From Gluconacetobacter dulcium (GTDB lineage: Bacteria; Pseudomonadota; Alphaproteobacteria; Acetobacterales; Acetobacteraceae), in contig NZ_JABEQN010000002.1 in the NCBI RefSeq assembly GCF_014174165.1, positions 1 to 64,000 on the forward strand: a DNA stretch of 64,000 nt, given 5' to 3'. Below are positions 2,294 through 19,609 of the stretch, in pieces (within the stretch, counting starts at the first letter, position 1; each line of letters starts with the position of its first letter). Below the pieces are notes generated by a model. It was given only the letters and a program-made list of their open reading frames with translations. It was not told the origin of the DNA and ran no database searches. The translations under genes were made by a program, and so were the position numbers.

Positions 2294-3033
2294 CCGAACT
2301 GGTGGTTGACCGCCTCTCATTCGCGCGGGGTGGGCGAGGGGTGTTGGAGGGGATCTCGTTCGCGATAAGGGGGGGCGAGATGGTTGCGCTGCTGGGGCCG
2401 AACGGGACGGGCAAGACCACTTTGCTGCGGCTGGTCCTGCGGCTGTTGCAGCCCGTGTCGGGGCGGGTGCTGCTCGACGGGCGGTCCATTTCGGGTATGA
2501 CACGACGCGCGCTGGCGACCCATCTGGCGTACGTGCCGCAGGGGCATGGGGTCGTCTTTCCCTATCGGGTGCGCGATGTGGTGGCGTTGGGGCGGTTGGC
2601 CGGCGGGACGATGCTGGCGCCGGTTGTGCCGGCGGCGGATCGTGAGGCCGCCGAACAGGCGTTGGCGAGGCTTGCCGTGGGCCATCTGGCGGATCGGTCC
2701 TATGCCGCGCTCTCCGGGGGTGAGCGGCAGGCGGTTCTGATCGCGCGGGCGCTGGTTCAGGGGGCGCGCCTGCTGGTGCTGGACGAACCGGAGACCGGTC
2801 TGGATTACGGGCAGCAGCAGCGCCTGTCCGACCTGCTGCGCCGGTTGGCGGCCGAGGGCTATGGCATTCTGGCCACGACGCACGACCCGTTGCGCGCCGC
2901 GCGGATTTTTGGCCGCGCGATCCTGATGCGTGAAGGGCGGATCGTCGCTGACGGGCCGGCCGGCGACATATTGTCGGCTCGGGCGATTGCGGACCTGTAT
3001 GGACTCAAGGCTGTTTCGGCTGGGCCTGCATGA
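2290..3033 (+). CDS. ABC transporter ATP-binding protein (FecE/FhuC/BtuD-like)
   Basis: This 247-residue ATPase energises the metal-chelate importer. It has a Walker A motif GPNGTGKTT at residues 36-44, a Q-loop around YVPQG, the signature LSGGERQ at 141-147 and Walker B LLVLDEPETGLD at 161-172. The start is set at the ATG at 2290 because it overlaps the permease stop as ATGA. A longer in-frame reading would run through the permease gene. The 3' end overlaps the convergent GH92 gene by 29 bases, so transcripts from the two strands are complementary there. Confidence 0.92.
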   Translation: MTELVVDRLSFARGGRGVLEGISFAIRGGEMVALLGPNGTGKTTLLRLVLRLLQPVSGRVLLDGRSISGMTRRALATHLAYVPQGHGVVFPYRVRDVVALGRLAGGTMLAPVVPAADREAAEQALARLAVGHLADRSYAALSGGERQAVLIARALVQGARLLVLDEPETGLDYGQQQRLSDLLRRLAAEGYGILATTHDPLRAARIFGRAILMREGRIVADGPAGDILSARAIADLYGLKAVSAGPA

Positions 3034-5296: not shown

Positions 5297-5362
5297 GAAT
5301 GGATCTTGGCTCGGGCAATGGGACGATCTGGAACGGGAGTGTCGCACATCGTGCGCTCTTCC

Positions 5363-6298
5363 CTAAACCCCCAGGATCTGGCGTTCGTCTTCATCGATCC
5401 AGCCGAGATCGAGCATGTCCTGCGTGATCCATGCGAAATCGGGATGTGTGGCCTCTTTCGCGACGAAGGTGACGGGTTCGGGCGTTGTGTTTTCGTCCAA
5501 TGTTGCAAGGGTCGCGCGGGCGGGCAGGGCGAGGCCGCCCTTCTCGGGTGGCTGGGCGAGTTCCTGCGCCAGGGCGTGCCGGTTGTCCGGCGCCCGGCAA
5601 TAGGCCACGGCGTCGCGCAGGGCGGCTTTGACGCGGTCGGCCCTGTCGGCGATCCTGTCTGAAATGACGAGCAGTTTTTCGAGATGAAACGGCATGACGG
5701 TGGAGGAGCCGCCGACAAGGAAGCCGAGGCCGCGCAGGCAGGCTTCCGTGCCCCATGAGGGGCCGACGCAGCCGCCGTCGATGGCGCGATCGGCCAGGGC
5801 GCTGATCATATCGGCGGGCGGCATGACGACCAGCTCGATCCCGCTGTCCATCTCCACCCCGATCTGTCCGAGGAAACGGCGCAGGATGAGCAGGTGGGTG
5901 GAATACATATGGACCACCGCGAGGCGCGGACGGCGGCCGATGGACTGTTGCCACCGGTCGAAAGCCTGTCTGCCCTCCGCGCCGGCCGGCCATGGGGTGG
6001 CGAGCGGGTTGGTGCCGCGCAGGACCAGCGTGTTGCCGCCGCGACTGAGCGTGCAGAGCGGGCGCAGGGATGCGGCGTGGCCGCGCCGGCCGAGGGCCGT
6101 CATGATGGCGAGCGGCGGAAAGATTACGGCGGCGTCGAGGGTTTTCCAGGCCAGGCCGTCGGCGATATTGGACCAGGAGGGGGAGAGCACGATCTCGGGC
6201 GCGATGTCGTGCCGGGCGAACAGGCCGTGATTGCGGGCGATGACGACCGGCGCGCTGTCGGTCAGGCGCAGCAGGCCGATGCGCAGGGCACGGGTCAT
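5363..6298 (-). CDS. nasS: NasS-type nitrate/nitrite sensor protein
   Basis: This 311-residue protein is related to the NrtA/CmpA periplasmic nitrate- and bicarbonate-binding proteins, but it starts directly with MTRALRIGLLRLTDSAPVV and has no signal peptide, as expected for the cytoplasmic sensor NasS. In known systems NasS holds NasT inactive and releases it when nitrate or nitrite binds. It overlaps nasT by four bases (ATGA), which supports joint synthesis of the pair. The order here is nasT then nasS, both at the promoter-distal end of the nas operon. Length and the absence of a leader separate it from a transport binding protein. Confidence 0.85.
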   Translation of the reverse strand: MTRALRIGLLRLTDSAPVVIARNHGLFARHDIAPEIVLSPSWSNIADGLAWKTLDAAVIFPPLAIMTALGRRGHAASLRPLCTLSRGGNTLVLRGTNPLATPWPAGAEGRQAFDRWQQSIGRRPRLAVVHMYSTHLLILRRFLGQIGVEMDSGIELVVMPPADMISALADRAIDGGCVGPSWGTEACLRGLGFLVGGSSTVMPFHLEKLLVISDRIADRADRVKAALRDAVAYCRAPDNRHALAQELAQPPEKGGLALPARATLATLDENTTPEPVTFVAKEATHPDFAWITQDMLDLGWIDEDERQILGV

Positions 6299-6927
6299 GA
6301 TTCGTCACCCTGCCCATGGGCGGCGAGGTAATCGGCGGCGACGGCGGCGATGCGCCGGGATTCCTGCATGGCGCGGCGGCGAAGCCAGCGGTAAGCCTGA
6401 TCCTCGGTGGTGTTTTCGGTCTTCATGAAAAGTCTCTTCGCCTGGTCGATGCGTTTCTGTTCCGCCAGTTTGCGCTGGGCTTCGGTCAGTTCGCCGCGCG
6501 TGCGCTTGAAGCGGGAATAGAGGGCGATGGCGGCGCGCAGCAGGGGTTTGACGTCGTCGGGCGGTGCTTCCAGGACGTTATAGGAGCAGATGCCGATATC
6601 GAAGGCGGTTTCCATCAGGTCCACGTCGTCCCTGTCGACGAACAGGGCGACGGGGCGTTCGAGCGCCGGCTGGGTGAGGGCGCGGATGCTGTCCAGCGCG
6701 TCGCGGTCCGCGCGGCCCATATCGACCAGCACCACGTCCGGATGATGCTGCCGCACGGCGTCGATCAGGGCGGTGCCGGCGGGGACGGACAGCACGCGCA
6801 GGGAGGGATCGGCCCGGAGATCGTCCGACAGGGCCCGCGCGCGGCGCGTGTTCGCGTCGGCGACCAGGACGGTCATCGGCGGGCGGGCCGTGCGGCCCAG
6901 GGGATCGGACGGGTTGTCAATCGGCAT
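6295..6927 (-). CDS. nasT: NasT-type ANTAR-domain antiterminator
   Basis: This 210-residue protein has a receiver-like N-terminal domain (residues about 15-135, with VVLVDMG at the usual phosphorylation position) and a C-terminal ANTAR helical domain (KLAEQKRIDQAKRLFM, then EDQAYRWLRRRAM and further helices). ANTAR proteins bind paired RNA hairpins with hexanucleotide loops and prevent termination. The start is the ATG at 6927, which overlaps the TGA of the nitrate reductase gene as TGATG; a TTG immediately before it would add one residue. Its expected RNA target is present in this window in the leader of the same operon (16844-16863 and 16903-16920), which strengthens the assignment. Confidence 0.9.
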   Translation of the reverse strand: MPIDNPSDPLGRTARPPMTVLVADANTRRARALSDDLRADPSLRVLSVPAGTALIDAVRQHHPDVVLVDMGRADRDALDSIRALTQPALERPVALFVDRDDVDLMETAFDIGICSYNVLEAPPDDVKPLLRAAIALYSRFKRTRGELTEAQRKLAEQKRIDQAKRLFMKTENTTEDQAYRWLRRRAMQESRRIAAVAADYLAAHGQGDES

Positions 6928-9900
6928 CAATAGACATCGCGCAGATAGCGGCTCTCCCGCGTCAGTGCGGTCATGAAACTGGTGGCGTCCGAGGTGGACA
7001 GGCCCCCATGACGGGCGACGATCCTGTGCAGGGCGGCATCGACATCCCGTGCCATGCGGGCGGCGTCACCACAGACATACACGAAGGCGCCGGCCCGCAG
7101 CCAGTCCCACAATTCCGCTCCGGCTTCCTCCATGCGGTCCTGTACGTAGACGCGCGCCGACTGGTCGCGCGAGAAGGCGGTGTCCAGCCGGGTCAGGCAG
7201 CCGTCGGCGCGGAAGGACTCCAGCTCCTGCCGGTAATAGAATCCCTGGTCCGCATGGCGTTCGCCGAAGAACAGCCAGTTGCGGCCGGGCGCCTTGCGGG
7301 CCGCGCGGTCCTGAAGGAAGGCGCGGAAGGGGGCGATGCCGGTGCCGGGGCCGATCATGACGATCGGGGCCTCGTCATCCCGCGGCAGGCGGAAATGCGA
7401 GGTCGGCTGGAGGAACACCGGCACCTCGCCGCCATCGGCAAGCGATGCGAGCCAGTTGGAGCAGAGACCGGGCCACGGGTCGCGATTGACGCCCACGGTC
7501 AGTTCCACGACGCGACCCGAGGCCCTGGGCGAGGAGGCGATGGAATAAAGGCGGGGCTGCATGCGCCGGAACAGGGGCGGGATGTCCTGCGCCGTGACCT
7601 TGAGCGCCGCGTCGCGCAGCAGGTGGGGAAGAAAACCGCCCTCGGCACAGTCCAGGGCGGCGCGCATGGCCGGGTTGGGGCGCGACAGGTCGAGATGGCG
7701 GCGCAGGGCCTCGCGGAGCCCCACGGTGCCGTGGCCGCGCAGGACGACCGGTGTTTCCTCCGGCAGGCGCAGGGCGGCCAGCGCGGCCTCGACATGGGCG
7801 GCCGGGTTGCAGGGCCAGATGCCCAGCGCGTCGCCCGGCTGCCAGGTGAGGCCGGTCGCGCCCAGGTCCAGGCCGATGCGGCGGGTGTCCTTGTCGGATG
7901 TAACCAAGTCGGTTGTGCCGGTGCACAGGGGCTCGTTGAGGACCAGGCGGGCGATGGCGGGCGTGTCGCGGGTGCCGATGGCGGGCGCGGAGAGGGGGGT
8001 GGGGGTTTTGGCCGTGATGTCGGGGGCGGCGTGGGTGCCGAGGGCGGTGAGCAGGGTGCCGCGCCATGCCGCCACCGTGTCGTCGAAATCCGGTTCGCAG
8101 TCCGTGCGGTCCAGCAGCATGGTGGCGCCGAGGGCGCGGAGGCGCGTGTCGAGCGCGCGGCCGAAGCCGCAGAAACCGGCATAGGAGGAATCGCCCAGCG
8201 CGAGGATGGCGCAGGTGAGGCCCGGCAACGGGGCCTCACGCATGCGCAGGGCGTTCCAGAACGGCGTTGCGCAATCCGGCGGGTCGCCGTCGCCGAAGGT
8301 GGAGACGACGAAGATGGCCCGGCCGGGGCCTGGATCGCCGGATTCGCACTGATCGAGGCAGGCGAGGGCGACCGTGTGGCCGGCCTCGCGCAGCCAGGTG
8401 GCGACGGTGGCGGCGAGGGCCTCGGCACGGCCGGTCTGCGAGGCCCACCAGACGCGGATGGCGGGTGGTGGCGATGCCGGGGCCAAGGGGGCCGGGGTGG
8501 CGGGATCGGGCGTGCCGCGGCTGTAGAGGCCGGCCAGCAGGCCGCCGACATGGGCGCGGGCCAGCGGGTCGAGCGGCGCCCCGGCGGGGAGCAGCGGCAC
8601 GATGCCGGGGGCGGGTGGGGCGAGGCGCAGCCCTTCGAGAAAGCCGGCCAGCCAGGCTTTGGCGTCTTCGGCGAGGGCGGGCGGCGCGGGTGTGGCCAGG
8701 CCGAGATGCCGGGCGATCTGTCCGGGGGGCATGTCGTTCTGTCCTTCGGGCCGGAGAGCGGGAGGGGAGGCCGCGATGCGTTCCAGCGCGACGGCGCAGA
8801 GCTTGAAGCCGGGCTGGAGGGAGACGGGATCGACGGCATCGGAGGTGACGGCGTTGACGGCGATGTCGTCGCCGAAACGGTCGTTCCAGTGGAACGGGGC
8901 GAAGCAGGTGCCGGGGCGGATGGCCTGGGTGACGCGCGCGGGCAGGGTGACGCTGCCCCGGCGGGAGGTGACGCGGACGGCATCGCCCCGCTGGAGGCCG
9001 AGCGCGCGGGCGTCTTCGGCGGCGATCTCGACGAAGGGGCCGGGGTTGAGGCGGTTGAGGCTTTCGACGCGGCCGGTCTTGGTGAGGGTGTGCCACTGAT
9101 GTTGCAGGCGGCCGCTGTTCAGCACGAAGGGGAACTCTTCGTCCGGCCATTCCTCGGGGCGCATCCATGGGCGGGCATGGAAGACGGCGCGGCCGTCCGG
9201 TGTGGCGAAGACGGGCGGGGCGCCCGGTGCGGGCAGGTAGCGGATGGGGTGGCGGGAGAGGGTATCGCCTTCGGGGGCCGGCCACTGGACGGGGCCGGCG
9301 CGCAGGCGGTCATGACTGATGCCGGCGATGTCGTAGCCGGTCGCCGGATTGGTGAAGCGGCTGGCCTCGGCGAAGATTTCGGCGGCGGAGGTGAAGGAGA
9401 AGCCGTCCGCGAAGCCCATGGCGCAGGCGACGCGGGCGATGATCTCCCAATCCGCCAGGGCCTCGCCGGGTGGGGCGACGGCCTTGCGGGCCAGCGTCAG
9501 GGTGCGGTCGGAATTGACCTGCACGCCGTCGGCCTCGGCCCAGAGCGCGCCGGGGAGCAGGATGTCGGCGTAGCGCGTGGTTTCGCTGTCGGCGAAGGCG
9601 TCCTGCACGATCACGCATTCGGCGGCTTGCAGGGCGCGGATGACGTGGTTGCGATTGGCGACGGTGGCGACGGGGTTGGTGCAGATGACCCAGCAGGCGC
9701 GGATTGCGCCGCGTTCCATCGCCGCGAACATCGCGATCGCGCCGTTGCCGCCGGCTTCGCGCACCGTGCCGGGCGGGAGGCCCCATTGCCGTTCGGCGAA
9801 GGCGCGGTCGGCGGCGACCAGCGCGCTGCGCTGGCCGGGCAGGCCTGGCCCCATATAGCCCATCTCGCGCCCGCCCATGGCGTTGGGCTGGCCGGTCAGC

Positions 9901-10886
9901 GAGAACGGGCCGCAGCCGGGGCGGCAGATCGTGCCGGTGGCCAGGTGCAGGTTGCACAGGGCATTGGTGTTCCATGTGCCGGTCAGGCTCTGGTTGAGGC
10001 CCATGGTCCACAGGCTCATCCACGCGCCCGCCTCGGCGATCCAGCGTGCCGTGGTCAGGATATCGGCGACCGGGAGGCCGGTGATGTCCGCCACCGTTTC
10101 GGGCGGGTAGTCGGCCAGGAAGGCGGGCATGGCGTCCCAGCCGGTGGTCGCCTGGGCGATGAAGCGGCTGTCGATGGCGCCGTCGCGGACCAGCAGGTGC
10201 AGCAGGCCGTTGAGCAGGGCGAGGTCGGTGCCGGGACGGATGGGAAGATACAGATCGGCCTTGTCCGCCGTCGCGGTGCGGCGGGGATCGACGACGACCA
10301 GCTTCGCGCCCGCGCGTTTGCGATCCATCAGCCGCAGGAACAGGATCGGGTGGCAATCGGCCATGTTCGCGCCGATGACGAAGAACAGGTTGGTACTGTC
10401 GAAATCCTCGTAGCTGCCGGGCGGGGCGTCGGCGCCGAGCGACAGCTTGTAGCCGCTGCCGGCGGCGGCCATGCAGAGGCGGGAATTGGATTCGATATAC
10501 TGACTGCGGACATAGCCCTTCGCCAGCTTGTTGATCAGATACTGCGCTTCCAGCGACATCTGGCCGGAGACGTAGAAGGCGATCGCGTCGGGGCCGTGCG
10601 TGTCGAGGATGGCGCGCAGGCGCCGGGCGGTGGCCTCGATCGCCTGATGCAGCGGGGCGGGCGTGGCCGCGCCGCCGCGTTCCGCCCTGAGTGCCGCGTG
10701 GGCGAGACGCTGGGGCGAGGACAGGGGTTTGTCGCACGAACTGCCCTTGGTACACAGCCGGCCGGCATTCGACGGGTGCGCGGGGTCGCCGCGCACCTTC
10801 GCGATCGTGCCGTCTTCCACTTCGAGGATGAGGCCGCAGCCGACCCCGCAATAGGGGCAGACGGAGCGGATGTCTTCCCTGGCCAT
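6927..10886 (-). CDS. nasA: Assimilatory nitrate reductase fused to CysJ-like diflavin reductase
   Basis: This 1319-residue protein joins two enzymes. Residues 1 to about 720 are a bis-MGD molybdenum nitrate reductase with an N-terminal 4Fe-4S site (C10, C13, C17, C45; motif CPYCGVGC). After a proline/alanine-rich linker, a flavodoxin-like FMN domain starts near residue 810 (WWASQTGRAEA), followed by an FAD-binding domain (RLYSIASSP) and a nicotinamide-binding domain (GPGTGIAPFRAFLQDR near 1174) ending in the CysJ-type RYLRDVY. The fusion would carry electrons from NAD(P)H through FAD and FMN to the molybdenum site, so no separate NasB or ferredoxin is needed. Such fusions occur in databases as bifunctional nitrate reductase/sulfite reductase flavoprotein. 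It lies six bases after nirBD and overlaps nasT. Confidence 0.93.
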   Translation of the reverse strand: MAREDIRSVCPYCGVGCGLILEVEDGTIAKVRGDPAHPSNAGRLCTKGSSCDKPLSSPQRLAHAALRAERGGAATPAPLHQAIEATARRLRAILDTHGPDAIAFYVSGQMSLEAQYLINKLAKGYVRSQYIESNSRLCMAAAGSGYKLSLGADAPPGSYEDFDSTNLFFVIGANMADCHPILFLRLMDRKRAGAKLVVVDPRRTATADKADLYLPIRPGTDLALLNGLLHLLVRDGAIDSRFIAQATTGWDAMPAFLADYPPETVADITGLPVADILTTARWIAEAGAWMSLWTMGLNQSLTGTWNTNALCNLHLATGTICRPGCGPFSLTGQPNAMGGREMGYMGPGLPGQRSALVAADRAFAERQWGLPPGTVREAGGNGAIAMFAAMERGAIRACWVICTNPVATVANRNHVIRALQAAECVIVQDAFADSETTRYADILLPGALWAEADGVQVNSDRTLTLARKAVAPPGEALADWEIIARVACAMGFADGFSFTSAAEIFAEASRFTNPATGYDIAGISHDRLRAGPVQWPAPEGDTLSRHPIRYLPAPGAPPVFATPDGRAVFHARPWMRPEEWPDEEFPFVLNSGRLQHQWHTLTKTGRVESLNRLNPGPFVEIAAEDARALGLQRGDAVRVTSRRGSVTLPARVTQAIRPGTCFAPFHWNDRFGDDIAVNAVTSDAVDPVSLQPGFKLCAVALERIAASPPALRPEGQNDMPPGQIARHLGLATPAPPALAEDAKAWLAGFLEGLRLAPPAPGIVPLLPAGAPLDPLARAHVGGLLAGLYSRGTPDPATPAPLAPASPPPAIRVWWASQTGRAEALAATVATWLREAGHTVALACLDQCESGDPGPGRAIFVVSTFGDGDPPDCATPFWNALRMREAPLPGLTCAILALGDSSYAGFCGFGRALDTRLRALGATMLLDRTDCEPDFDDTVAAWRGTLLTALGTHAAPDITAKTPTPLSAPAIGTRDTPAIARLVLNEPLCTGTTDLVTSDKDTRRIGLDLGATGLTWQPGDALGIWPCNPAAHVEAALAALRLPEETPVVLRGHGTVGLREALRRHLDLSRPNPAMRAALDCAEGGFLPHLLRDAALKVTAQDIPPLFRRMQPRLYSIASSPRASGRVVELTVGVNRDPWPGLCSNWLASLADGGEVPVFLQPTSHFRLPRDDEAPIVMIGPGTGIAPFRAFLQDRAARKAPGRNWLFFGERHADQGFYYRQELESFRADGCLTRLDTAFSRDQSARVYVQDRMEEAGAELWDWLRAGAFVYVCGDAARMARDVDAALHRIVARHGGLSTSDATSFMTALTRESRYLRDVY

Positions 10887-10892
10887 GCTGCC

Positions 10893-13787
10893 TCAGGCGG
10901 GGACGAGGGCCGGCGCCGCCGGGAGTTTCGCCCGGATCTGCACCGTGCCGTCGTGCAGGCGGGCATCCCATGTTCGCAGGCGGATGGCGGCGTCTTCCAG
11001 GCACTGGCCGTCTTCCAGGCGGAAATGCTGCTTGTAGAGCGGGGAGGCCACGATCCGCTGGCCTTTCAGGTCGCCCATCAGGCCGCGCCCGATGACGTTG
11101 GCGTTGGAGAACGGATCGTGGTTGTCGATGGCGTAGACATGGGCGGGCGCGCCGTCCGTTTCGGGCAGGTAGAACAGGGCGATCTGGCTGCCGTCGTGCC
11201 AGGCCACGACGCCGGAGCGGGGCACCAGGTCGGTCTGGCCGCACAGGTCGGTCCAGTCGGCGGGGCCGGCTTCGGGCGCGGTTTCCGGCAGGTTGTCGGC
11301 GGGGCGGACCTGATCGCGTTCCGGCAGGGTGCGGATATTGGGGTCCGGGCGGGTATCGTTGACGAAGGTGCGGAACCGCTTGAGCTTGTCGCGGTCGTTC
11401 AGCGCGTCGCGCCATTCGCAATGATAGTGGTCCACCACCGATTGCATCTGGCGTTCCAGCTCGGCACAGATGCCCAGTGAATCGTGGATGATGACATCGC
11501 GCAGATAGTCCAGCCCGCCTTCGAGATTTTCCCGCCAGACGGAGGTGCGCTGGAGCTTGTCCGCCGTGCGGATATAGAACATCAGGAAACGGTCGATGTA
11601 GCGGACCAGCGTTTCGGCATCGAGGTCGGTCGCGAACAGTTCGGCGTGCCGGGGGCGCATGCCGCCATTGCCGCAGACATAGAGGTTCCAGCCGTTTTCG
11701 GTGGCGATGATGCCGACATCCTTGCTCTGCGCCTCGGCGCATTCGCGCGTGCAGCCGGAGACCGCGAATTTGAGCTTGTGCGGCGAGCGCAGGCCCTTGT
11801 AGCGGTTTTCCAGATCCAGCGCCTTGCCTACGCTGTCCTGCACGCCGTAGCGGCACCATGTGCTGCCGACGCAGGATTTGACGGTGCGGGTCGATTTTCC
11901 GTAGGCGTGGCCGGTTTCGAAGCCGGCATCGAGCAGTTCGGTCCAGATGTCGGGCAAATGGTGAAGCTGGGCGCCGAACAGGTCGATGCGCTGGCCGCCG
12001 GTGATCTTGGTGTAGAGCCCGTATTTCTTCGCGACCTGGCCCAGAACGATCAGCCTGTCGGGCGTGATTTCGCCGCCGGCGATGCGGGGCACCACCGAGT
12101 AGGTGCCGTTTTTCTGCATGTTGGCCATGAACGTGTCGTTCGTGTCCTGCAACGGGATGTAGAGCGGGTCGGTGATCGGCTTGTTCCAGGCCGAGGCGAG
12201 GATCGAGCCGATCGCGGGCTTGCAGATGTCGCAGCCGAGGCCGCCATTGCCATGATGCGCCATCAGGTCTTCGAATGTCTGGAGTCCGTGCACGCGGACC
12301 AGGGAGTACAGCTCCTGCCGGGTATAGGAGAAATGCTCGCACAGGCTGCGATCGACGGTGATGCCGCGTGCTTCCAGGTCGGTCTCGAATACGCTCTTCA
12401 GCAGCGCCGTGCAGCCGCCGCAGCCGGTGCTGGCCTTGGTGTCGCATTTCAGGGTGGCCAGATCGGTGCAGCCCGCGTCGATGGCGGCGCGGATCGCGCC
12501 CTTGGTGACGTTGTGGCACGAGCAGATGGTGGCGGTGTCGGGCAGGGAGTCGGCGCCCAGCAGGTCCGCGCCGTCGCCGCGCGGCAGGATCAGCACCGCG
12601 GGGTCGGCGGGCGGTTTGATGGCGTTCTGCACATATTGCAGGATCGTATCATAATAGGAATTGTCGCCGACCAGCACCGCGCCGATCACGCGCGCGCCGT
12701 CGCCCGACAGGACCAGCCGGCGGTATGACCCGTCGGCCTCGCCGATGAAGCGATAGCTGCGGCTGTCGGCGGTCGCGCCGTGGGCGTCGCCGATGGAGCC
12801 GACATCGACGCCCAGCAGCTTGAGCTTGGTGGACATGTCCGCGCCGCCGAATGTGGCGTCTTCGCCGGCGAGAAGGGCGGCGACGGTGCGGGCCATGGCG
12901 TAGCCCGGCGCGACCAGGCCGAAGACCTGGCCGTTCCAGGCGGCGCATTCGCCGATGGCGAAGATCGCGGGATCGGACGTGCGGCAGGAATCGTCGATGA
13001 CGATGCCGCCGCGCGGGGCGATGGCGAGGTCGCAGGCGCGGGCCAGACGGTCCTGCGGCCGGATGCCGGCGGAGAAGACGACCAGATCGGTTTCCAGAAC
13101 GCTGTCATCGGCGAAGACGAGGCGGTGGCGGCATGTTTCCCCGGCCACGATCTCGCGCGTCGCGTGGCTGGTCAGCACCGCGATGCCCAGGGCCTCGATC
13201 CGCTGTTTCAGGGCCTGGCCGCCCGCGTCGTCGAGTTGCACGGGCATGAGGCGCGGGGCGAATTCGACGACCGATGTGGACAGCCCCAGCCCGGCCAGCG
13301 CGTTGGCGGCTTCCAGCCCCAGCAGGCCGCCGCCGATGACGACGCCACGGGATGCGCCGTCGGCGGCGGCGCGGATCAGGTCCAGGTCGTCCAGCGTGCG
13401 ATAGACCAGCCCGGCGGTGCCGCTGTTGCCGGGCACGGGCGGCACGAAGGGTGTGGAGCCGGTTGCGATGATGAGCGTGTGGTAGGGCAGGGTGCCTTCG
13501 GTGCTCTCGATGGTCCGGGCGGCGCGGTCGATCGCCGTGACGCGGACGCCGCGATGCAGGGTGAGACCGTGGGCGGTATGGAAATCCTGCCTGTGCAGGG
13601 CCAGGGCGGCGGCGTCCTGCCCGGTCATGTAGGCGGTGAGATGCACGCGGTCGTAGGCGTCGTGCAGTTCCTCGCCGAAGACGTGGATGGCGTGGCGTTC
13701 GTGCAGGCCGTGCATGACCAGTTGTTCGGCGCAGTAATGGCCGACCATGCCGTTGCCGATGATGACGATGGTGCCGGTGCTGGTCAT
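10893..13787 (-). CDS. nirBD: Fused NirB-NirD assimilatory NAD(P)H nitrite reductase
   Basis: This 964-residue cytoplasmic enzyme reduces nitrite to ammonium. It begins with an FAD/NAD(P)H oxidoreductase region (IGNGMVG; ATGSTPFVPPVPG; GGGLLGLEAA). A BFD-like 2Fe-2S domain has C422, C424 and a TGCGGC pair near 457-460. The sirohaem/4Fe-4S domain carries CVGSTWC (C639, C645) and CTREC (C679, C683). The last 120 residues or so (WTDLCGQTDLVPRSGVVAW to the end) are a NirD-type Rieske-fold domain without cluster ligands, normally a separate small subunit. The ATG at 13787 was chosen because MTSTGTIVIIGNG is the natural N-terminus and GGAAGGA lies upstream. A longer in-frame reading overlaps the porin gene and is not credible. 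Confidence 0.93.
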   Translation of the reverse strand: MTSTGTIVIIGNGMVGHYCAEQLVMHGLHERHAIHVFGEELHDAYDRVHLTAYMTGQDAAALALHRQDFHTAHGLTLHRGVRVTAIDRAARTIESTEGTLPYHTLIIATGSTPFVPPVPGNSGTAGLVYRTLDDLDLIRAAADGASRGVVIGGGLLGLEAANALAGLGLSTSVVEFAPRLMPVQLDDAGGQALKQRIEALGIAVLTSHATREIVAGETCRHRLVFADDSVLETDLVVFSAGIRPQDRLARACDLAIAPRGGIVIDDSCRTSDPAIFAIGECAAWNGQVFGLVAPGYAMARTVAALLAGEDATFGGADMSTKLKLLGVDVGSIGDAHGATADSRSYRFIGEADGSYRRLVLSGDGARVIGAVLVGDNSYYDTILQYVQNAIKPPADPAVLILPRGDGADLLGADSLPDTATICSCHNVTKGAIRAAIDAGCTDLATLKCDTKASTGCGGCTALLKSVFETDLEARGITVDRSLCEHFSYTRQELYSLVRVHGLQTFEDLMAHHGNGGLGCDICKPAIGSILASAWNKPITDPLYIPLQDTNDTFMANMQKNGTYSVVPRIAGGEITPDRLIVLGQVAKKYGLYTKITGGQRIDLFGAQLHHLPDIWTELLDAGFETGHAYGKSTRTVKSCVGSTWCRYGVQDSVGKALDLENRYKGLRSPHKLKFAVSGCTRECAEAQSKDVGIIATENGWNLYVCGNGGMRPRHAELFATDLDAETLVRYIDRFLMFYIRTADKLQRTSVWRENLEGGLDYLRDVIIHDSLGICAELERQMQSVVDHYHCEWRDALNDRDKLKRFRTFVNDTRPDPNIRTLPERDQVRPADNLPETAPEAGPADWTDLCGQTDLVPRSGVVAWHDGSQIALFYLPETDGAPAHVYAIDNHDPFSNANVIGRGLMGDLKGQRIVASPLYKQHFRLEDGQCLEDAAIRLRTWDARLHDGTVQIRAKLPAAPALVPA

Positions 13788-13869: not shown

Positions 13870-15540
13870 TCAGAATTTGAATTCCACGGTCTGCATGTAG
13901 AACACGCCGCTCTTCGCCCCCGCCTGGCGCATGCCGTGCGAGGCGGCGAAGCCCGCGATGTCGTGCGTCCAGGCCCAGTGCGGTGCGAAATTCCAGGCGA
14001 GCTGCGCCTGGGGCGTGACGCCGATGAAGCCGCCATGGAGCGTGTTGCGCCAGGAATAGATCTTTCCCGTGCCGTAGACGGCATCCTGCGTGCTCTCGCG
14101 CCAGAAGACCGGCACATGCAGCCGCAGGTGGACGGTGGAGAGCGGGGTGGCGGTGATGACCGGACCCACGCCGACGAGGTTCTGCGAGGTGACGGCCAGC
14201 GTGACATCGTTGTAGTATGGGAGCGGGAAATACGGCGTGGCGAAGGTGCCGACGGCGCCGTCCTTGCTGTGGTAGGAGCCCCCCGAGAACAGGTCGGCCT
14301 GGATGCCGAAGGTGGGTTTGCCGGGCAGGGTGCCGCCGTTCCAGTTGGCGACGCCGTTGACGGCGTAGGCGCGCACCGCGCGCGTCGGCCCCGCATTGCC
14401 CGCCGGGCGGAATTCGCCGCCCTGGAATACGCCCGTCAGGCTGGCATCGAAGGGGCCGGCGGTGCCCCAGAGGCGGGTGCCGATATTGTCGCGGCGGGTC
14501 GAGCCGGGCTGCGCCTTGCCGCTCTGCGCCGCCGGGAGGGCGGCGGCGGGGCCGTTGAAGAGATAGCCGAGGAAAAAGACGTCGGCGAAGATGTGGGTCT
14601 TCTGCCCCAGGAACGAGAAGGAGGGCAGGGCGGTCGATGTGTAGGCGCCGTACATCCGGGCGTTGTAGCTGGTGCCGTCGGCGAAGACATTGCGCGGCAG
14701 CTTGTTGGTCTGCATGAAATCGAACAGGTCGACGCGGACGGATTTCCAGACGGCGTAGCCCCGGAAACCATCCCATGTCTGCTGCACGTTGGGCAGGTCG
14801 CGGGCCGACTGCATGGAAATCGGCGCATCGAGAAAGACCTGTCGGCCGCCGATGGCGCCCATCTTCGCGCCGAGCAGGTTGCCCTTGACCTCCAGAATGC
14901 CCTGCTGGAGGTCGAGCCGTTCGCGCTGGGTGCCGGCCTGATAGCCGTAATAATTGCTGCCGCCGCCGACGCCCCAGAGAAATTCGGCGTAGGCGCGGAT
15001 ATGCTCGCCGAGATGCAGGTCGGCGCCATACATGGTGCGCAGCAGGATGCGGCTGGCGTTCGTCTTGCCGGCCGTGCCCATCATCGGCTGGTTTTCGAAG
15101 ATGTAGCGCAGGCGTTCCTCGCCGCTGATCGACAGCCAGATATCGCCCTTGTCGGTCAGGCGGATATATTTGAGGCGATTGAACCAGTCCTGCCTCCGGC
15201 GTGCCGGAGAGGCGGTGGCGAGGTCGCTCCAGTCCTCCGCCCAGCGGGCCTGGCCGAAGCCGTTGACGGCGCCGAACCCAGCGGCGGCGCTTTTGGCGGC
15301 ATTGAATACGCCCCAGTCGCGGGTATGGGGCGGTTGTTTGCGGGAGGGTGCGGTCTTTCCGGCGGCCGTCTGCTGGCTGTGCGCGGTCGGTGCCGCGTGG
15401 TCGGCCGGCGTGGCGGCGTGGGCCGGGCGCGCGAGCAGGGCGGCGGCCAGCAGCGCCGTGTTGGCGGCGCGGGCGGGCGATCGGACGGGCGATCGGACGA
15501 TGGCGCGTGTCGGGCGCGCGCCGGTCTGTTCATGGGGCAC
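13870..15540 (-). CDS. Outer-membrane porin, alginate-export (AlgE-like) family, in the nas operon
   Basis: This 556-residue protein has a signal-like N-terminus (TALLAAALLARPAHA), a polar linker, and then a long beta-rich region with alternating aromatic residues ending in VEFKF, the terminal phenylalanine typical of outer-membrane barrels. The pattern matches the alginate-export porin family found beside nitrate genes in several proteobacteria. Its place between the nitrate transporter and nirBD suggests that it lets nitrate or nitrite through the outer membrane. The frame opens with a GTG at 15540, 27 bases after the narK stop, with no clear ribosome binding site; an ATG at 15533 is in another frame. 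Family assignment is fair, substrate is inferred from context. Confidence 0.75.
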   Translation of the reverse strand: MPHEQTGARPTRAIVRSPVRSPARAANTALLAAALLARPAHAATPADHAAPTAHSQQTAAGKTAPSRKQPPHTRDWGVFNAAKSAAAGFGAVNGFGQARWAEDWSDLATASPARRRQDWFNRLKYIRLTDKGDIWLSISGEERLRYIFENQPMMGTAGKTNASRILLRTMYGADLHLGEHIRAYAEFLWGVGGGSNYYGYQAGTQRERLDLQQGILEVKGNLLGAKMGAIGGRQVFLDAPISMQSARDLPNVQQTWDGFRGYAVWKSVRVDLFDFMQTNKLPRNVFADGTSYNARMYGAYTSTALPSFSFLGQKTHIFADVFFLGYLFNGPAAALPAAQSGKAQPGSTRRDNIGTRLWGTAGPFDASLTGVFQGGEFRPAGNAGPTRAVRAYAVNGVANWNGGTLPGKPTFGIQADLFSGGSYHSKDGAVGTFATPYFPLPYYNDVTLAVTSQNLVGVGPVITATPLSTVHLRLHVPVFWRESTQDAVYGTGKIYSWRNTLHGGFIGVTPQAQLAWNFAPHWAWTHDIAGFAASHGMRQAGAKSGVFYMQTVEFKF

Positions 15541-15567: not shown

Positions 15568-16788
15568 TCAGAGGGCGGCGGGAAGTTCCGTGCTGTCGGG
15601 CAGCGGCCGGACCGATATGGTCTTCCAGCGTCGGCGGCAGACCGACACGCAGCCGAGGGCGAGCAGGGCGATGCCGGCGAAGGCGAGGAAGCCGGGGCCG
15701 TACGACCCTGTTGCCTGCCGCGCCGCGCCGAGCGACGAGGCGAGGTAGAACCCGCCCACGCCGCCGCTCATGCCCACCAGGCCGGTCAGGATACCGACCT
15801 GCCGGGGGAAGAGGGTCGGCACGAGCTGGAAGACGGCGCCGTTGCCCAGCCCCAGCACCAGCATCCCGGCGAAGAAGGCCGGAAAGGCCAGCCAGATGGT
15901 GGGCAGGCCGCTGCCGATCAGGCCGAAGATGACGGCGGCGGCGGCGTAGAGGATGCACAGCGCGCGGTCGCCGCCGACGCGATCGGCCAGCGCGCCGCCC
16001 AGCGGGCGGACGAAGGAGCCGACGAACACGACCAGAGCCGTGCAACTGCCCGCCACCGTCGGCGCCAGCCCGTACTGGTCGTTGAAATAGATCGTCAGGA
16101 AGGAGGCCAGGCCGACGAAGCCGCCGAACGTGACGCCGTAGAAGAACATCAATGCCCAGCAATCGGCTTTCCTGAGCACCGGCAGCCAGGCGACGAGGCC
16201 GGCGGAGGGGCGGCGGGGCGGTTCCTTGGCGAGGAACAGGAAGGCGCAGAGCACGGCGGCCAGCGGGAGGGTGGCGAGGCCCAGCACGTTCACCCAGCCA
16301 TAAAGGACGGCCAGCCCCGGCGCGAAGAGGGCGGCGAGCGCGGTGCCGGAATTGCCCGCGCCCGCGATGCCCAGCGCCGTGCCCTGATAGTGCGGCGGGT
16401 ACCATCCCGACGCGAGGGGCAGCGCGACCGCGAAGGAGGCGCCGGCCACGCCCAGGACCAGGGCGACGGGAAACAGGCCCGCATAGCTGTGGGGGGCGAT
16501 CATCCAGCTTGCGGCGAGGCCGGCGATGACGAGAAGCTGCATGGCGATGGCGACCCGGCGGGGGCCGAAACGATCGACCAGCGCGCCGGCGACGACGCGG
16601 AATGCCGCGCCGGCCAGCACCGGTATGGCGACCAGAAAACCTTTTTGCCCGGCATTGAGATGCAGGTCATGGGCGATGGCGATGCCCAGCGGCCCGAGCA
16701 GAACCCAGACCATGAAGGACACATCGAAATAGAGAAACGCCGCAAGCAGCGTGCGCGGATGACCGGCTTTGAAAAATCCCTTGTCCAC
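15568..16788 (-). CDS. narK: MFS nitrate/nitrite transporter, NarK/NasA type
   Basis: This 406-residue, 12-segment major facilitator protein is the inner-membrane nitrate transporter of the operon. Family hallmarks are the N-terminal AAFLYFDVSFMVWVLLGPLG and glycine-rich signature stretches (GIAGAGNSGTALAALFAPG; GMSGGVGGFYLASSLG). The start is set at GTG 16788 (VDKGFFKAGHPRTLLAAF), which fits the conserved family N-terminus. A longer in-frame reading would pass through the leader hairpins and lacks membrane character. It is the first gene of the nas operon, about 150 bases downstream of a strong promoter, so its leader is the expected point of NasT control. The start has only a weak ribosome binding site. 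Confidence 0.88.
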   Translation of the reverse strand: MDKGFFKAGHPRTLLAAFLYFDVSFMVWVLLGPLGIAIAHDLHLNAGQKGFLVAIPVLAGAAFRVVAGALVDRFGPRRVAIAMQLLVIAGLAASWMIAPHSYAGLFPVALVLGVAGASFAVALPLASGWYPPHYQGTALGIAGAGNSGTALAALFAPGLAVLYGWVNVLGLATLPLAAVLCAFLFLAKEPPRRPSAGLVAWLPVLRKADCWALMFFYGVTFGGFVGLASFLTIYFNDQYGLAPTVAGSCTALVVFVGSFVRPLGGALADRVGGDRALCILYAAAAVIFGLIGSGLPTIWLAFPAFFAGMLVLGLGNGAVFQLVPTLFPRQVGILTGLVGMSGGVGGFYLASSLGAARQATGSYGPGFLAFAGIALLALGCVSVCRRRWKTISVRPLPDSTELPAAL

Positions 16789-16801
16789 GGTGCAGCATCC
16801 A

Positions 16802-16920
16802 GCGTCCGCCTTGCAATCAGGAGGACGCGCCCTCTGCGGGCATGAAAGCCGTCTTTGACTTTCCGGTGTCTCGTCGTGTGGTTTCTGACCGCGCCTGGTC
16901 GATCCGTCGCCGTTGACGGA
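16802..16920 (-). ncRNA. ANTAR-type leader RNA of the nas operon (two hexaloop hairpins)
   Basis: On the minus strand the nas leader holds two hairpins of the kind bound by ANTAR proteins. P1 (16920-16903) is TCCGTC, loop AACGGC, GACGGA: a perfect 6-bp stem. P2 (16863-16844) is GAAAGTC, loop AAAGAC, GGCTTTC, a 7-bp stem with the lower part perfect and one G-T wobble. Both loops are six bases long with A at position 1 and G at position 4, the known ANTAR recognition rule. They are 39 bases apart. A third hairpin (16828-16802; stem GCGTCC/GGACGC) lies between P2 and the narK start and could be the alternative structure that blocks elongation or translation. NasT, encoded in the same operon, is the expected partner. 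No U-run terminator is visible, so the termination mechanism is unclear. Confidence 0.8.
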
Positions 16921-16947
16921 AAACCTGTATGGAGCGGACCTGTAATT

Positions 16948-16976
16948 ATTATCGGACAAGAATGATATGGAGTCAA
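16948..16976 (-). promoter_or_regulatory. sigma70 promoter of the nas operon
   Basis: On the minus strand TTGACT (16976-16971) and GATAAT (16953-16948) are separated by exactly 17 bases, a close match to the housekeeping consensus. Transcription would start near 16941, leaving a leader of about 150 bases that contains both ANTAR hairpins before the narK GTG at 16788. The promoter lies about 25 bases after the stop of the histidine kinase gene, which is read on the same strand. Confidence 0.7.
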
Positions 16977-17000: not shown

Positions 17001-18203
17001 CTACAGGCTGAGCAGGAACGCGGTGCGCCATGGCGTGTCGGGCCGGGATGGCTCCAGGGTGAGCGAGCCGCCATGGGCCAGGGCGATCTGGCGGGCGAGG
17101 CTGAGGCCGATGCCGCTGCCGTTGGGCTTCAGCGAGAAGAACGGGCGGAAGACCGCGTCGCGGTGGGCGTCCGCGATGCCGGCGCCATTGTCGCGGATGG
17201 CGATGACCATGCCGGTCGATGTGGCGTGGCCTTGGAGCCAGACGGTGGGGCCGGCGGGATCGGCGGTGGCGAGGGCGGCTTCCGCCGCGTTGGTGAGAAG
17301 GTTCAGCACGGCCTGTTCCATCTGCGCCACGTCGAGGCGCACGATGACGCGGCGGGGCGGCATGGTGGTGTCCAGCCGGATGCGGTGGCCCCAGCGGGCG
17401 CCGAACAGCGCGCCCAGTCCGCGCAGCAGGTCGTGCAGGTCGGTCGGGCGCGGGTCGGGGGGCGGCAGGCGCGCCAGGTCGCGATAGCCCTGCACGAAGC
17501 GGTCGAGCCCGCGGGTGCGGCGCAGGATGGTGCCCAGGGCCTCGCGGATCGTCTCCGCCGCCGCCGGGTCGAGCGGGGGGGCGGCCAGTTCGTGCGCCGT
17601 TTCGGCCAGCGAGATGATCGGGGTGAGCGAATTCATGATCTCGTGGCCGAGGATCTGGAGCAGGTCGCGCAGGGTGCGGGCGTCGGCGGCGTTCAGTTCC
17701 GCCTCGATATCGGTCAGGGCCAGGAAATGCGTGACGCCGCCTGACCCGCTGCCCTGCGCCACGGCCAGGGCGAAGGTGCGCGGCGGGGCATCCTGCATTG
17801 TGGGAATGCGCACGACGCGGCGTTCGGGCGACGGCGTGCCCAGCAGGGCGGCCGTGTCGGCGGGCAGGCGGTCCTCGGTGCCGAACAGGCGGCGGGCGGC
17901 GCGGTTGGCGGCGTGGAAGGCGCCGTCGCCCGTGCGGTAGAGCAGGGGGATGGGAGCGTGGTCCAGCAGGGCGCGGTTGCGCAGGCGCTCGCGGTCCGAG
18001 GGGCGGACGATGGCGCTTTCCACCCGCACGGGGCGCCGGGCCAGGGCGGCCAGCAGGCCGACATGGATCAGCGTTGCCGCCAGCGCGGCCAGGGTAAGCA
18101 GGGTGGCGGTGGCATAGAGGCCGGCCGCCAGCGCGCGCGGCGCCAGCAGGCAGGCGCCCGCGACCAGGACGATGCAGACCGCGAAGCTGCGGATGGCGCG
18201 CAT
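17001..18203 (-). CDS. Membrane sensor histidine kinase (NtrY/NtrB-like)
   Basis: This 400-residue kinase has two N-terminal membrane segments (about residues 6-22 and 27-52), a PAS-like region (about 75-165), the phosphoacceptor box GHEIMNSLTP with H187, and an HATPase domain with VLNLLTNAAEA, DNGAGI, FFSLK and GSGIGLSLA motifs. The start is the ATG at 18203, which overlaps the stop of the response regulator gene as TAATG, so the pair is co-translated. Almost no periplasmic loop is present, so it may sense membrane or cytoplasmic signals. The gene order (regulator, kinase, divergent exporter) indicates that it controls the adjacent ABC efflux genes. Confidence 0.9.
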   Translation of the reverse strand: MRAIRSFAVCIVLVAGACLLAPRALAAGLYATATLLTLAALAATLIHVGLLAALARRPVRVESAIVRPSDRERLRNRALLDHAPIPLLYRTGDGAFHAANRAARRLFGTEDRLPADTAALLGTPSPERRVVRIPTMQDAPPRTFALAVAQGSGSGGVTHFLALTDIEAELNAADARTLRDLLQILGHEIMNSLTPIISLAETAHELAAPPLDPAAAETIREALGTILRRTRGLDRFVQGYRDLARLPPPDPRPTDLHDLLRGLGALFGARWGHRIRLDTTMPPRRVIVRLDVAQMEQAVLNLLTNAAEAALATADPAGPTVWLQGHATSTGMVIAIRDNGAGIADAHRDAVFRPFFSLKPNGSGIGLSLARQIALAHGGSLTLEPSRPDTPWRTAFLLSL

Positions 18204-19405
18204 TACAGGCCGTAGCGCGCCATGCGGCGGTACAGGGCGGGACGGGTGAGCCCGAGGTCGCGCGCCGCGTGCGAGACGTTGAACCCGTGGCGGCGCAGCG
18301 CGGCCTCGATCAGCGCCTGTTCGGACTGGGCCAGCGTGGGGGCGTCCTGCGTGTGTGTGCTGTCGCCGGGCAGGGGAGCGGCTGCGTCGCCCAGGACCAC
18401 CATCCGCTCCATCGCCGCGCGCAGTTCGCGGATATTCTGCGGCCAGGGGCGCAGATGGAGGGCGTCGAGGGAGGCCGTGTCCAGCGCGGGTTCGGGCAGG
18501 CCGTGGCGGATGGCGAAATAATGCAGGAAATGCGCGGCAAGTGCGGGAATGTCGTCCTGGCGGCCGGCCAGCGGCGGCAGCGTGACGCGCACCGCGTCGA
18601 GGGGCAGCCACAGCCGTGGCGGCAGGCGGGCGGCAAGCTCCTCCGCCCCCAGGGAGGAGAGGGCGAGGATGCGTGGCGGGGCGGCGTCGTCCAGCCTGTC
18701 GGCCAGGGTGCGCTGGAGCGTGGGCGGCAGGGATTCGATCCCGCGCATGATCCAGGTGCCGCGTCCGGGGGGGAGGGTGGACAGGCCCTCGGCGTCGAGC
18801 ATGACCGGTGGCGCGGTGTCGCCCGAGCGGGCATGGATGCGGCGGGCCAGCAGGGTCTTGCCGCTGCCGGGCGGGCCGGAGAGCAGCATGTGCGCGCGGG
18901 TGGGCGCGATGCGGTCCGCAAGGGCGACGGCCGTGCGTATCGGGCCGGAAACCGCGATCAGGACCGGTTCGCCGGTTTCGGAATCCGCTTCCATCGTTCC
19001 GGCCTCGCGCCGCAGGCGGTCCAGCGTGTCGTGCAGCAGGGTGACCAGCCGTTCGTTATGCCATGGCTTCATGACGAAATCGGTGGCGCCTTCGCGCATG
19101 GCGGCGACGGCGATGGCCACCCCGCTATGGCCCGTGACGACGATGACCGGCAGGGCGGGACGCAGCGCGTGCAGGTCGCGCAGCAGCGCCAGCCCTTCCG
19201 CCCCGGTGGTGGCGCCCGGTGCGTAATTCAGATCCAGCAGCACCAGGTCGATCGGGTCGGCGGCGACGCGGGTCAGGGCCTCCGCCGCGTCGTGGGCCGG
19301 GAGCACGCGAAAGCCGCGCCGTGTGAGCAGCAGGCGGGCGGCGGACTGGATGTCGGTATCGTCGTCGACGAAGAGGACCGTTGGCGGGTTGGCCGGGTCC
19401 GTCAT
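18203..19405 (-). CDS. NtrC-like response regulator with degenerate AAA+ domain
   Basis: This 400-residue regulator has a normal receiver domain (residues 8-130; D58 phosphoacceptor in VLLDLN, T91, K113) and a C-terminal Fis-type helix-turn-helix (about 375-398, ARDLGLTRPALYRRMARYG). The central AAA+ part is reduced. Walker A is present (GPPGSGKT, 177-184), but the region that should hold the GAFTGA loop is missing, the Walker B acidic pair is replaced by TWIMRGIE (217-224), and the arginine-finger segment is not recognisable. It therefore should not drive sigma54 open-complex formation and probably acts as an ordinary DNA-binding regulator. The start at ATG 19405 gives MTDPANPPTVLFVDDD; a longer reading upstream has no domain character. 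Confidence 0.85.
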   Translation of the reverse strand: MTDPANPPTVLFVDDDTDIQSAARLLLTRRGFRVLPAHDAAEALTRVAADPIDLVLLDLNYAPGATTGAEGLALLRDLHALRPALPVIVVTGHSGVAIAVAAMREGATDFVMKPWHNERLVTLLHDTLDRLRREAGTMEADSETGEPVLIAVSGPIRTAVALADRIAPTRAHMLLSGPPGSGKTLLARRIHARSGDTAPPVMLDAEGLSTLPPGRGTWIMRGIESLPPTLQRTLADRLDDAAPPRILALSSLGAEELAARLPPRLWLPLDAVRVTLPPLAGRQDDIPALAAHFLHYFAIRHGLPEPALDTASLDALHLRPWPQNIRELRAAMERMVVLGDAAAPLPGDSTHTQDAPTLAQSEQALIEAALRRHGFNVSHAARDLGLTRPALYRRMARYGL

Positions 19406-19478
19406 GGTGTGGGTGCTCCCGATTCGTTTTGTGTCGTTTCGCGGTCGTGCGGATATCCGTCTTGACAGGCCTGCCCGG

Positions 19479-19514
19479 CTGTCCGGTTTCGGACAGTTTG
19501 TCCGCTGGCGGACA
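19479..19514. promoter_or_regulatory. twin palindromic operators upstream of the efflux operon
   Basis: Two copies of TGTCCG-N4-CGGACA lie 19 bases apart in the 204-base gap between the divergent regulator and adaptor genes: CTGTCCG-GTTT-CGGACAG at 19479-19496 and TGTCCG-CTGG-CGGACA at 19499-19514. Both arms are perfect in each copy. They are good candidates for the binding site of the dimeric Fis-type regulator encoded at 18203-19405. A possible -10 element TACAAT follows at 19549-19554, which would place the sites just upstream of RNA polymerase, as for an activator at a sigma70 promoter. No -24/-12 sigma54 element was found. Confidence 0.7.
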
Positions 19515-19609
19515 GGGAGAGGGAGTGATCCGAAAAACATCGTTGTTTTACAATGGGATAAAAATCCGTTCGGGTACCATACACTGTTTGCGAACGAGGG
19601 AAACAGAGC

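Follow-up and report, generated by a model that had tools for sequence, protein, structure and literature searches.

The leader in front of narK in the window (the whole 64,000-nt stretch of Gluconacetobacter dulcium DNA that was analysed) is, judged from its sequence, a cis-acting target RNA of NasT and a NasT leader of a known kind, because its paired loops recur among relatives, the stems covary, and the genome holds a single ANTAR protein with a single convincing target RNA. The best-known role of ANTAR proteins is to prevent intrinsic termination. For this leader we propose, with a probability of about one half, translational activation: in the off-state its second hairpin (P2) would pair with the ribosome-binding site (RBS), and in the on-state NasT would keep P2 closed. 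At the level of the sequences, the leaders of the family have paired six-base loops with A at position 1 and G at position 4 (A1/G4), covarying stems, no terminator-like site, a P2 close to the RBS, and complementarity between the two. The folding evidence in the window itself is weak and therefore we infer translational control of the window leader from the family.

The nas cluster and its leader in the window

The ORFs of the cluster, and the one that follows it, are these:

15568..16788, minus strand: narK, nitrate/nitrite MFS transporter (TIGR00886, 261.7 bits, under the cut-off of 311.7)
13870..15540, minus strand: porin-like ORF (Alginate_exp)
10893..13787, minus strand: nirB with a C-terminal NirD-like Rieske domain, 964 aa (domain matches)
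6927..10886, minus strand: assimilatory nitrate reductase (nasA) fused to a flavodoxin/FAD/NAD reductase, 1319 aa (domain matches)
6295..6930, minus strand: nasT, ANTAR response-regulator-like (ANTAR 51.5 bits, cut-off 27.3)
5363..6298, minus strand: nasS-like nitrate sensor (NMT1_2, 135 bits)
3005-5347, minus strand: glycosyl hydrolase family 92 (GH92) ORF, starting 15 or 66 nt past nasS, according to the start codon chosen

The narK start is the GTG at 16788-16786, and a GTG start is common to the orthologs in the genus. NasT pairs its ANTAR domain with a receiver-like part (Response_reg, 27.7 bits, just under the cut-off of 30.2), and the N-terminus of the NasS-like protein, MTRALRIGLL, has by eye no signal peptide, as in a cytoplasmic NrtA-like sensor. 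The tail of the nitrate reductase (6927-10886) is a CysJ-like flavodoxin reductase.

The intergenic gaps from narK to nasA are 27, 82 and 6 nt, followed by two 4-nt overlaps, nasT and nasS each overlapping the preceding ORF by 4 nt. The earlier note had placed nasT and nasS last in the operon. These two genes do close the nas cluster, but nasS need not end the transcript, because the same-strand GH92 ORF begins so shortly after it; this ORF is possibly co-transcribed with the nas genes, and the transcript may run past nasS. Directly upstream of the leader and on the same strand (17001-19540, minus strand) lie a histidine kinase and an NtrX-like response regulator, the latter matching the sigma-54 activation domain in part; the same pair is found upstream of the leader in L102, L104 and L106.

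A search of the genome gave one ANTAR match, NasT. Our model R1 gave one match of 55 bits in the same genome, at the window leader, the next scoring 28 bits; scoring was limited to 150 of the 10454 first-look candidates and may have passed over weak targets. A genome with a single ANTAR protein and a single convincing target is consistent with the self-contained circuit proposed before. Of the next R1 matches, the one of 28.2 bits lies just past the end of a gene and the one of 25.8 bits within a gene. The 28.2-bit match was rejected, because it is a long hairpin in the space where two genes converge and recurs in G204 (L138), a member of the genus that lacks a NasT match at E 1e-18. This kind of hairpin, long, near-perfect and with a loop of the A1/G4 type, lies between converging genes in L126 (about 1550-1585, within G000:C4:250130-250207) and in L138, and is probably a transcription end and not an ANTAR RNA.

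The leader is made up as follows:

16971..16976, minus strand: -35-like TTGACT (10/12 consensus matches together with the -10)
16948..16953, minus strand: -10-like GATAAT, with a 17-nt spacer to TTGACT
16903..16920, minus strand: P1 hairpin UCCGUC-AACGGC-GACGGA, loop AACGGC at 16914-16909, A1/G4
16864..16902, minus strand: P1-P2 linker, 39 nt
16844..16863, minus strand: P2 hairpin GAAAGUC-AAAGAC-GGCUUUC, loop AAAGAC at 16856-16851, A1/G4
16802..16828, minus strand: P3 hairpin GCGUCC..GGACGC, without a U-run, its 3' end 1 nt before GGA
16801-16792, minus strand: proposed alternative partner of the P2 loop and 3' arm (16853-16843), UGGAUGCUGC
16798..16800, minus strand: Shine-Dalgarno-like GGA, 9 nt before the GTG of narK

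The TTGACT-17-GATAAT promoter claimed upstream of narK is present on the minus strand at 16976-16948, and a promoter scan found 2 promoter-like sites in the 601-nt region versus 0.1 expected; the transcript may begin at the candidate position 16941. The two A1/G4 hexaloop hairpins, 39 bases apart, are likewise where the earlier note had read them. The third hairpin lacks a U-run, as that note also said, and this holds throughout the family, where a terminator-like site was found in 0 of 93 leaders.

Both P1 and P2 are present in the minimum-energy fold of the leader, with pairing probabilities of 0.78-0.79 and 0.99-1.0, and folding makes P3 a stable, G+C-rich hairpin. The fold of the leader has a z of -2.19 (an equally good one in 4/200 shuffles), and taking the window alone the score of the A1/G4 pair was matched by 2/3000 dinucleotide shuffles of a 310-nt segment. 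An Rfam scan of the window at the gathering score gave 0 matches. The linker could form, by reading, a small hairpin GACC-AGGCGC-GGUC that is absent from the minimum-energy fold, and it includes the C-rich stretch CACACGACGAGACACC.

Paired A1/G4 loops in the Acetobacteraceae

Relatives were collected by searching NasT in 200 Acetobacteraceae genomes and NarK in 14 genomes of the genus, and 60 stretches were taken. The leaders stand in three layouts:

1) narK-(porin)-nirB-nasA-nasT-nasS, with the leader ahead of narK, as in the window.

2) nasT-nasS-leader-narK.

3) nasT-leader-nasS/nrtA-like gene.

Our finder requires a pair of hexaloop hairpins, each closed by a C-G pair, at score thresholds of 20, 24 and 28. 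In the discovery set the A1/G4 pair was found in 50/53 leaders at threshold 20 or 24 and in 46/53 at 28, whereas the other 15 loop rules gave 0 or 1 each and dinucleotide shuffles 0-1 of 53. These leaders had been preselected for some A1/G4 pair, present at 54 of 59 anchors (L068 was removed as spurious, leaving 53); the anchors without a pair were L063 and L065, both incomplete sequences, L071, L086 and L087. Because of this preselection we took a second, unselected set of 60 further stretches, 7 of them without a usable anchor. The A1/G4 pair was present in 46 of the 53 held-out leaders examined (43 at threshold 28), versus 0-3 for the other rules, shuffles being limited to the discovery set. 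The earlier note's reading depended on orthologous leaders having the paired hexaloops, and in both sets most of them do.

For the later comparisons L088, L090 and L093 were left out for a doubtful P2 or start, giving 50 discovery leaders, and the start codons of L067 and L108 were set by hand to the narK start of the protein match. The held-out leaders with a pair, minus L249, L213 and L220, gave 43. Position 2 of the P2 loop, which is outside the rule of the finder, is A in 93/93 leaders, and the distance from loop to loop is 40-70 nt.

The stems covary in an alignment of 30 of 52 leader segments, hand-picked for diversity. Paired cells made up 88.1% of it, versus 32-53% when it was slid; the covariation score was 0.607 versus 0.213 in shuffles, and there were 97 doubly changed cells versus 33.6, neither value being reached by any of 500 shuffles. 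Two-sided changes occurred at 12/14 pairs, a count also reached by 68/500 shuffles, and the invariance of the two closing pairs and of A1/G4 is imposed by the finder. At the third P2 pair 10/30 cells are unpaired. The P2 stem of layout 3, GCGGUCC (L098, L113, L121), often has a U-C or U-U mismatch at this pair, perhaps kept for the alternative pairing with the RBS.

The promoter type shifts with the layout ahead of the same RNA element across the 93 leaders (examples are the window at 16976-16948, L073 and L076). TTTGAC lies within 130 nt upstream of P1 in 21/22 leaders of layout 1, the narK-first one, and TGGCAY-N4-6-TTGC, a sigma-54-like motif, lies upstream of P1 in 17/21 leaders of layout 2 and 5/50 of layout 3. 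L109 (G174:C12:65000-80000, about 1450-3020) has a leader with both hexaloops before a narK that lies in two frames and continues into a fragment of nasS; no match to nirB, nasA or nasT was found in the stretch, and its genome, that of a genus member, lacks a NasT match at E 1e-18. It is apparently a deleted nas operon with the leader kept.

Terminators and the ribosome-binding site

We called a terminator where a run of at least 5 T stood behind a stem of at least 6 pairs in the 330 nt that precede the first structural gene. The class-wide R1 search was nearly blind (7/385 genomes, with at most 12 candidates scored per genome) and therefore leaders of the class were reached via NasT: 56 of the 385 genomes had a match, the window's own included, and 40 were sampled, none of them from Acetobacteraceae. 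In the other alphaproteobacterial families 23/33 examinable leaders had a terminator, whereas the same criterion gave 1/55 in Acetobacteraceae, a single site that precedes the leader, about 300 nt upstream. Furthermore, none of the 93 Acetobacteraceae leaders has a terminator-like site between P1 and position +150 of the gene. Within 190 nt of the U-run, all the 23 terminator-bearing leaders have at least one A1/G4 hexaloop hairpin, for which a lenient stem of 3 pairs was allowed. In 22/23 the loop and 3' arm of one such hairpin pair with the 3' arm of the terminator over 6-14 contiguous pairs, G-U allowed and no chance level attached. Those leaders thereby show the arrangement published for ANTAR RNAs, with a P2 that overlaps the terminator (PMC3369931, PMC8934654, as far as these sources describe it), a feature seen in 0/93 Acetobacteraceae leaders. 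Nevertheless, the loss of the terminator is not strictly confined to the family, because 10/33 class leaders, L152 and L154 among them with narK as the first structural gene, are also without one by this criterion.

P2 ends close to the start codon, 13-67 nt before it with a median of 35 (n=93 leaders). Only 13-19 nt follow P2 in L069, L072, L073, L075, L203, L207 and L209, and therefore there is no room for another hairpin in these seven leaders. A short third hairpin usually accompanies P2; where present, it typically ends a few nt before an SD-like GGA/AGGAG, as seen by eye and uncounted.

The pairing of P2 with the RBS was evaluated on the segment of P2 that pairs with the terminator in other families, by comparing loop positions 4-6 plus the 3' arm (12 nt) on the leader's own RBS (-16 to +3) with the same segment on the RBS of other leaders. 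In the 50 discovery leaders the own RBS gave -12.24 kcal/mol versus -10.71 when permuted, a value reached by 0/5000 permutations overall (z -5.0) and by 1/5000 within layouts; layouts 1, 2 and 3 taken singly gave 107, 1015 and 5 of 5000. After deduplication (34 leaders) p was 0.0003 overall and 0.0075 within layouts, and none of eight discovery shams fell below 0.05, the lowest being 0.05 for codons 2-7. The first held-out run (46 leaders) gave p=0.013 overall and 0.17 within layouts, and its shams reached 0.0015 (reverse complement) and 0.0145 (P2 5' arm) overall. This run used a new start-codon rule, and the rerun restored the discovery rule, shifting L192, L201 and L240. The rerun (43 leaders, 34 deduplicated) gave p=0.0008 overall and 0.03 within layouts, figures to be read with the fact that both the switch of rule and the dropping of three rows were chosen after the weaker first result was known. 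Its shams gave 0.002 (reverse complement) and 0.03 (P2 5' arm) overall and 0.19 and 0.46 within layouts.

With the sets pooled (61 leaders), 0/4000 permutations reached the observed value overall, and the within-layout p was 0.0022; of seven shams, three lay at 0.02-0.05 overall and none below 0.27 within layouts. Watson-Crick helices of at least 6 pairs were found in 13/61 versus 6.5 expected (p=0.0012) and of at least 7 in 6/61 versus 1.9 (p=0.0008), with no enrichment at 5 or more (25/61 versus 20.9, p=0.07). Those of at least 6 are spread over layout 3 (10/31), layout 1 (3/14) and layout 2 (0/16), and layout 2 also gave no signal in discovery (p=0.20). Compensated pairs lie over the Shine-Dalgarno/spacer: GCGGAUCG with CGAUCCGC in L101 and L240, GGCGGUUC with GAACCGCC in L245, CGAUCC with GGAUCG in L107 and CGGUUC with GAACCG in L062. 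On these statistics, in which related sequences are not independent, a family-level complementarity of P2 and RBS has moderate statistical support. We dropped the alternatives in which the RBS pairs with the P2 5' arm or with P1, neither of which had within-layout support.

In the window, the duplex of 16853-16843 with 16801-16792 has -8.5 kcal/mol, and the fold with this pairing lies 5.1 kcal/mol above the minimum, where the probability of P2 is about 1. Forcing P1 and P2 leaves the window RBS no more open (coupling +0.2), the mean coupling of layout 1 being -0.01. Over the 50 leaders the coupling was -2 kcal/mol or lower in 15 and +2 or higher in 4. When RBS tails were swapped within layouts (48 leaders) the mean coupling was weaker in 12/12 permutations by a small margin, -1.19 with the own RBS versus -0.41 to -1.12, and values of -2 or lower occurred in 14 leaders versus 5-13. 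The case for a P2:RBS switch in the window leader itself is weak. A long-range pairing of the window P2 3' arm with narK codons was rejected by eye, and it is absent from L105.

Known systems and competing explanations

Paracoccus denitrificans (nasA) and Bradyrhizobium have the same NasT/NasS pair, and their nitrate-assimilation genes are likewise preceded by leader hairpins; the accounts available (PMC5424462, PMC6759348, PMC4724949) describe these leaders under a transcription antitermination model. According to these, hairpin HI is required for expression in Paracoccus, and the authors also infer an effect of nitrate on translation (PMC5424462). Antitermination is stated there, whereas in the Acetobacteraceae leaders we found no terminator; and the Paracoccus nasTS genes lie upstream of the leader, whereas those in the window come last in the regulated cluster. 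The two hairpins with six-base A1/G4 loops are like the dual-hexaloop RNA of EutV, NasR and AmiR as presented in PMC3369931 and PMC8934654. However, the linker has 39 nt in the window versus 5-12 nt in the eut RNA of Enterococcus, whose response is described as strongly reduced or abolished when the linker is lengthened, and the eut-type P2 overlaps an intrinsic terminator, which the window P2 does not. The short linker is a feature of the eut examples and may not extend to all ANTAR RNAs. In the actinobacterial and mycobacterial ANTAR RNAs, as PMC8164766 presents them, the site is at the translation start and terminators are rare, as here; binding represses translation in mycobacteria, whereas for Acetobacteraceae, a different phylum, we propose activation via release of the RBS. 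RNAs overlapping the RBS are reported there in actinobacteria, and matches near or over the RBS are mentioned in PMC3369931.

NasT leaders, ANTAR hexaloops and the idea of terminator-less ANTAR RNAs acting on translation are thus already in print, to the extent of the texts cited. Among the matches listed from the open-licence literature nothing concerned an Acetobacteraceae NasT leader or RBS release by an ANTAR protein, and nasT goes unmentioned in the portion of the Gluconacetobacter diazotrophicus genome paper at hand (PMC2765452). The new part would be the family-wide change of output; the window leader itself belongs to the known kind.

In the proposed mechanism, nitrate-bound NasS would release NasT, as known from Paracoccus, and the freed NasT would grip the A1/G4 loops of P1 and P2. 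The off-state would have the 3' side of P2 paired with the Shine-Dalgarno/start region; NasT, by keeping P2 closed, would free the RBS and activate translation, in the window as in the family. This would turn on narK-porin-nirBD-nasA-nasT-nasS, nasT itself included, and the genes further down the operon may be affected by polarity.

The main rival to translational control is Rho-dependent termination in the untranslated leader or early narK when NasT is absent, with NasT on P1 and P2 blocking Rho or letting ribosomes couple. We regard it as possible but rather doubtful. Transcription attenuation would need Rho, because no terminator-like site exists in the 93 leaders, and Rho would suit both the C-rich linker stretch and the description of NasT as a transcription antiterminator in the Paracoccus and Bradyrhizobium accounts; it leaves unexplained why P2 is close to the RBS and complementary to it. 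A classic intrinsic terminator with a weak U-run that we missed seems quite improbable. P3 is stable and G+C-rich enough to raise the idea, and narK contains a terminator-like site at 16752-16737 (2 in the region versus 0.5 by chance). Nevertheless, P3 does not overlap P2 in the window, so that the two are not mutually exclusive, the seven leaders with 13-19 nt after P2 argue against it, and the criterion that detects 23/33 terminators in other families finds none between P1 and +150 in the 93 leaders, by which the in-gene candidate was also rejected.

It is equally hard to believe that NasT binding represses translation or alters mRNA stability, as in the mycobacterial RNAs that overlap the RBS and repress translation (PMC8164766, as far as described). 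P2 is close to the RBS in Acetobacteraceae, and in one Bradyrhizobium study under denitrifying conditions narK rose without nasT, according to the available account; but the RBS is not inside P2, and NasT is described as required for expression of the assimilation genes in the alphaproteobacteria studied. That the hairpins arose by chance and have no function is scarcely credible: A1/G4 loops are short, and weak R1 matches occur within coding regions and also in genomes that lack NasT, but conservation, covariation and the controls contradict it.

Translational activation thus remains our preferred reading for the Acetobacteraceae. As a tentative view, to which we give a little less than even odds, NasT would be a translational on-switch, the ANTAR equivalent of the riboswitches that work through either a terminator or a sequestered RBS. 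If this is true, the RNA recognised by NasT has been kept while its terminator was replaced by the RBS, and therefore the output of the system would be swappable. The leaders with and without a terminator would then offer a natural comparison for the role of the two hairpins.
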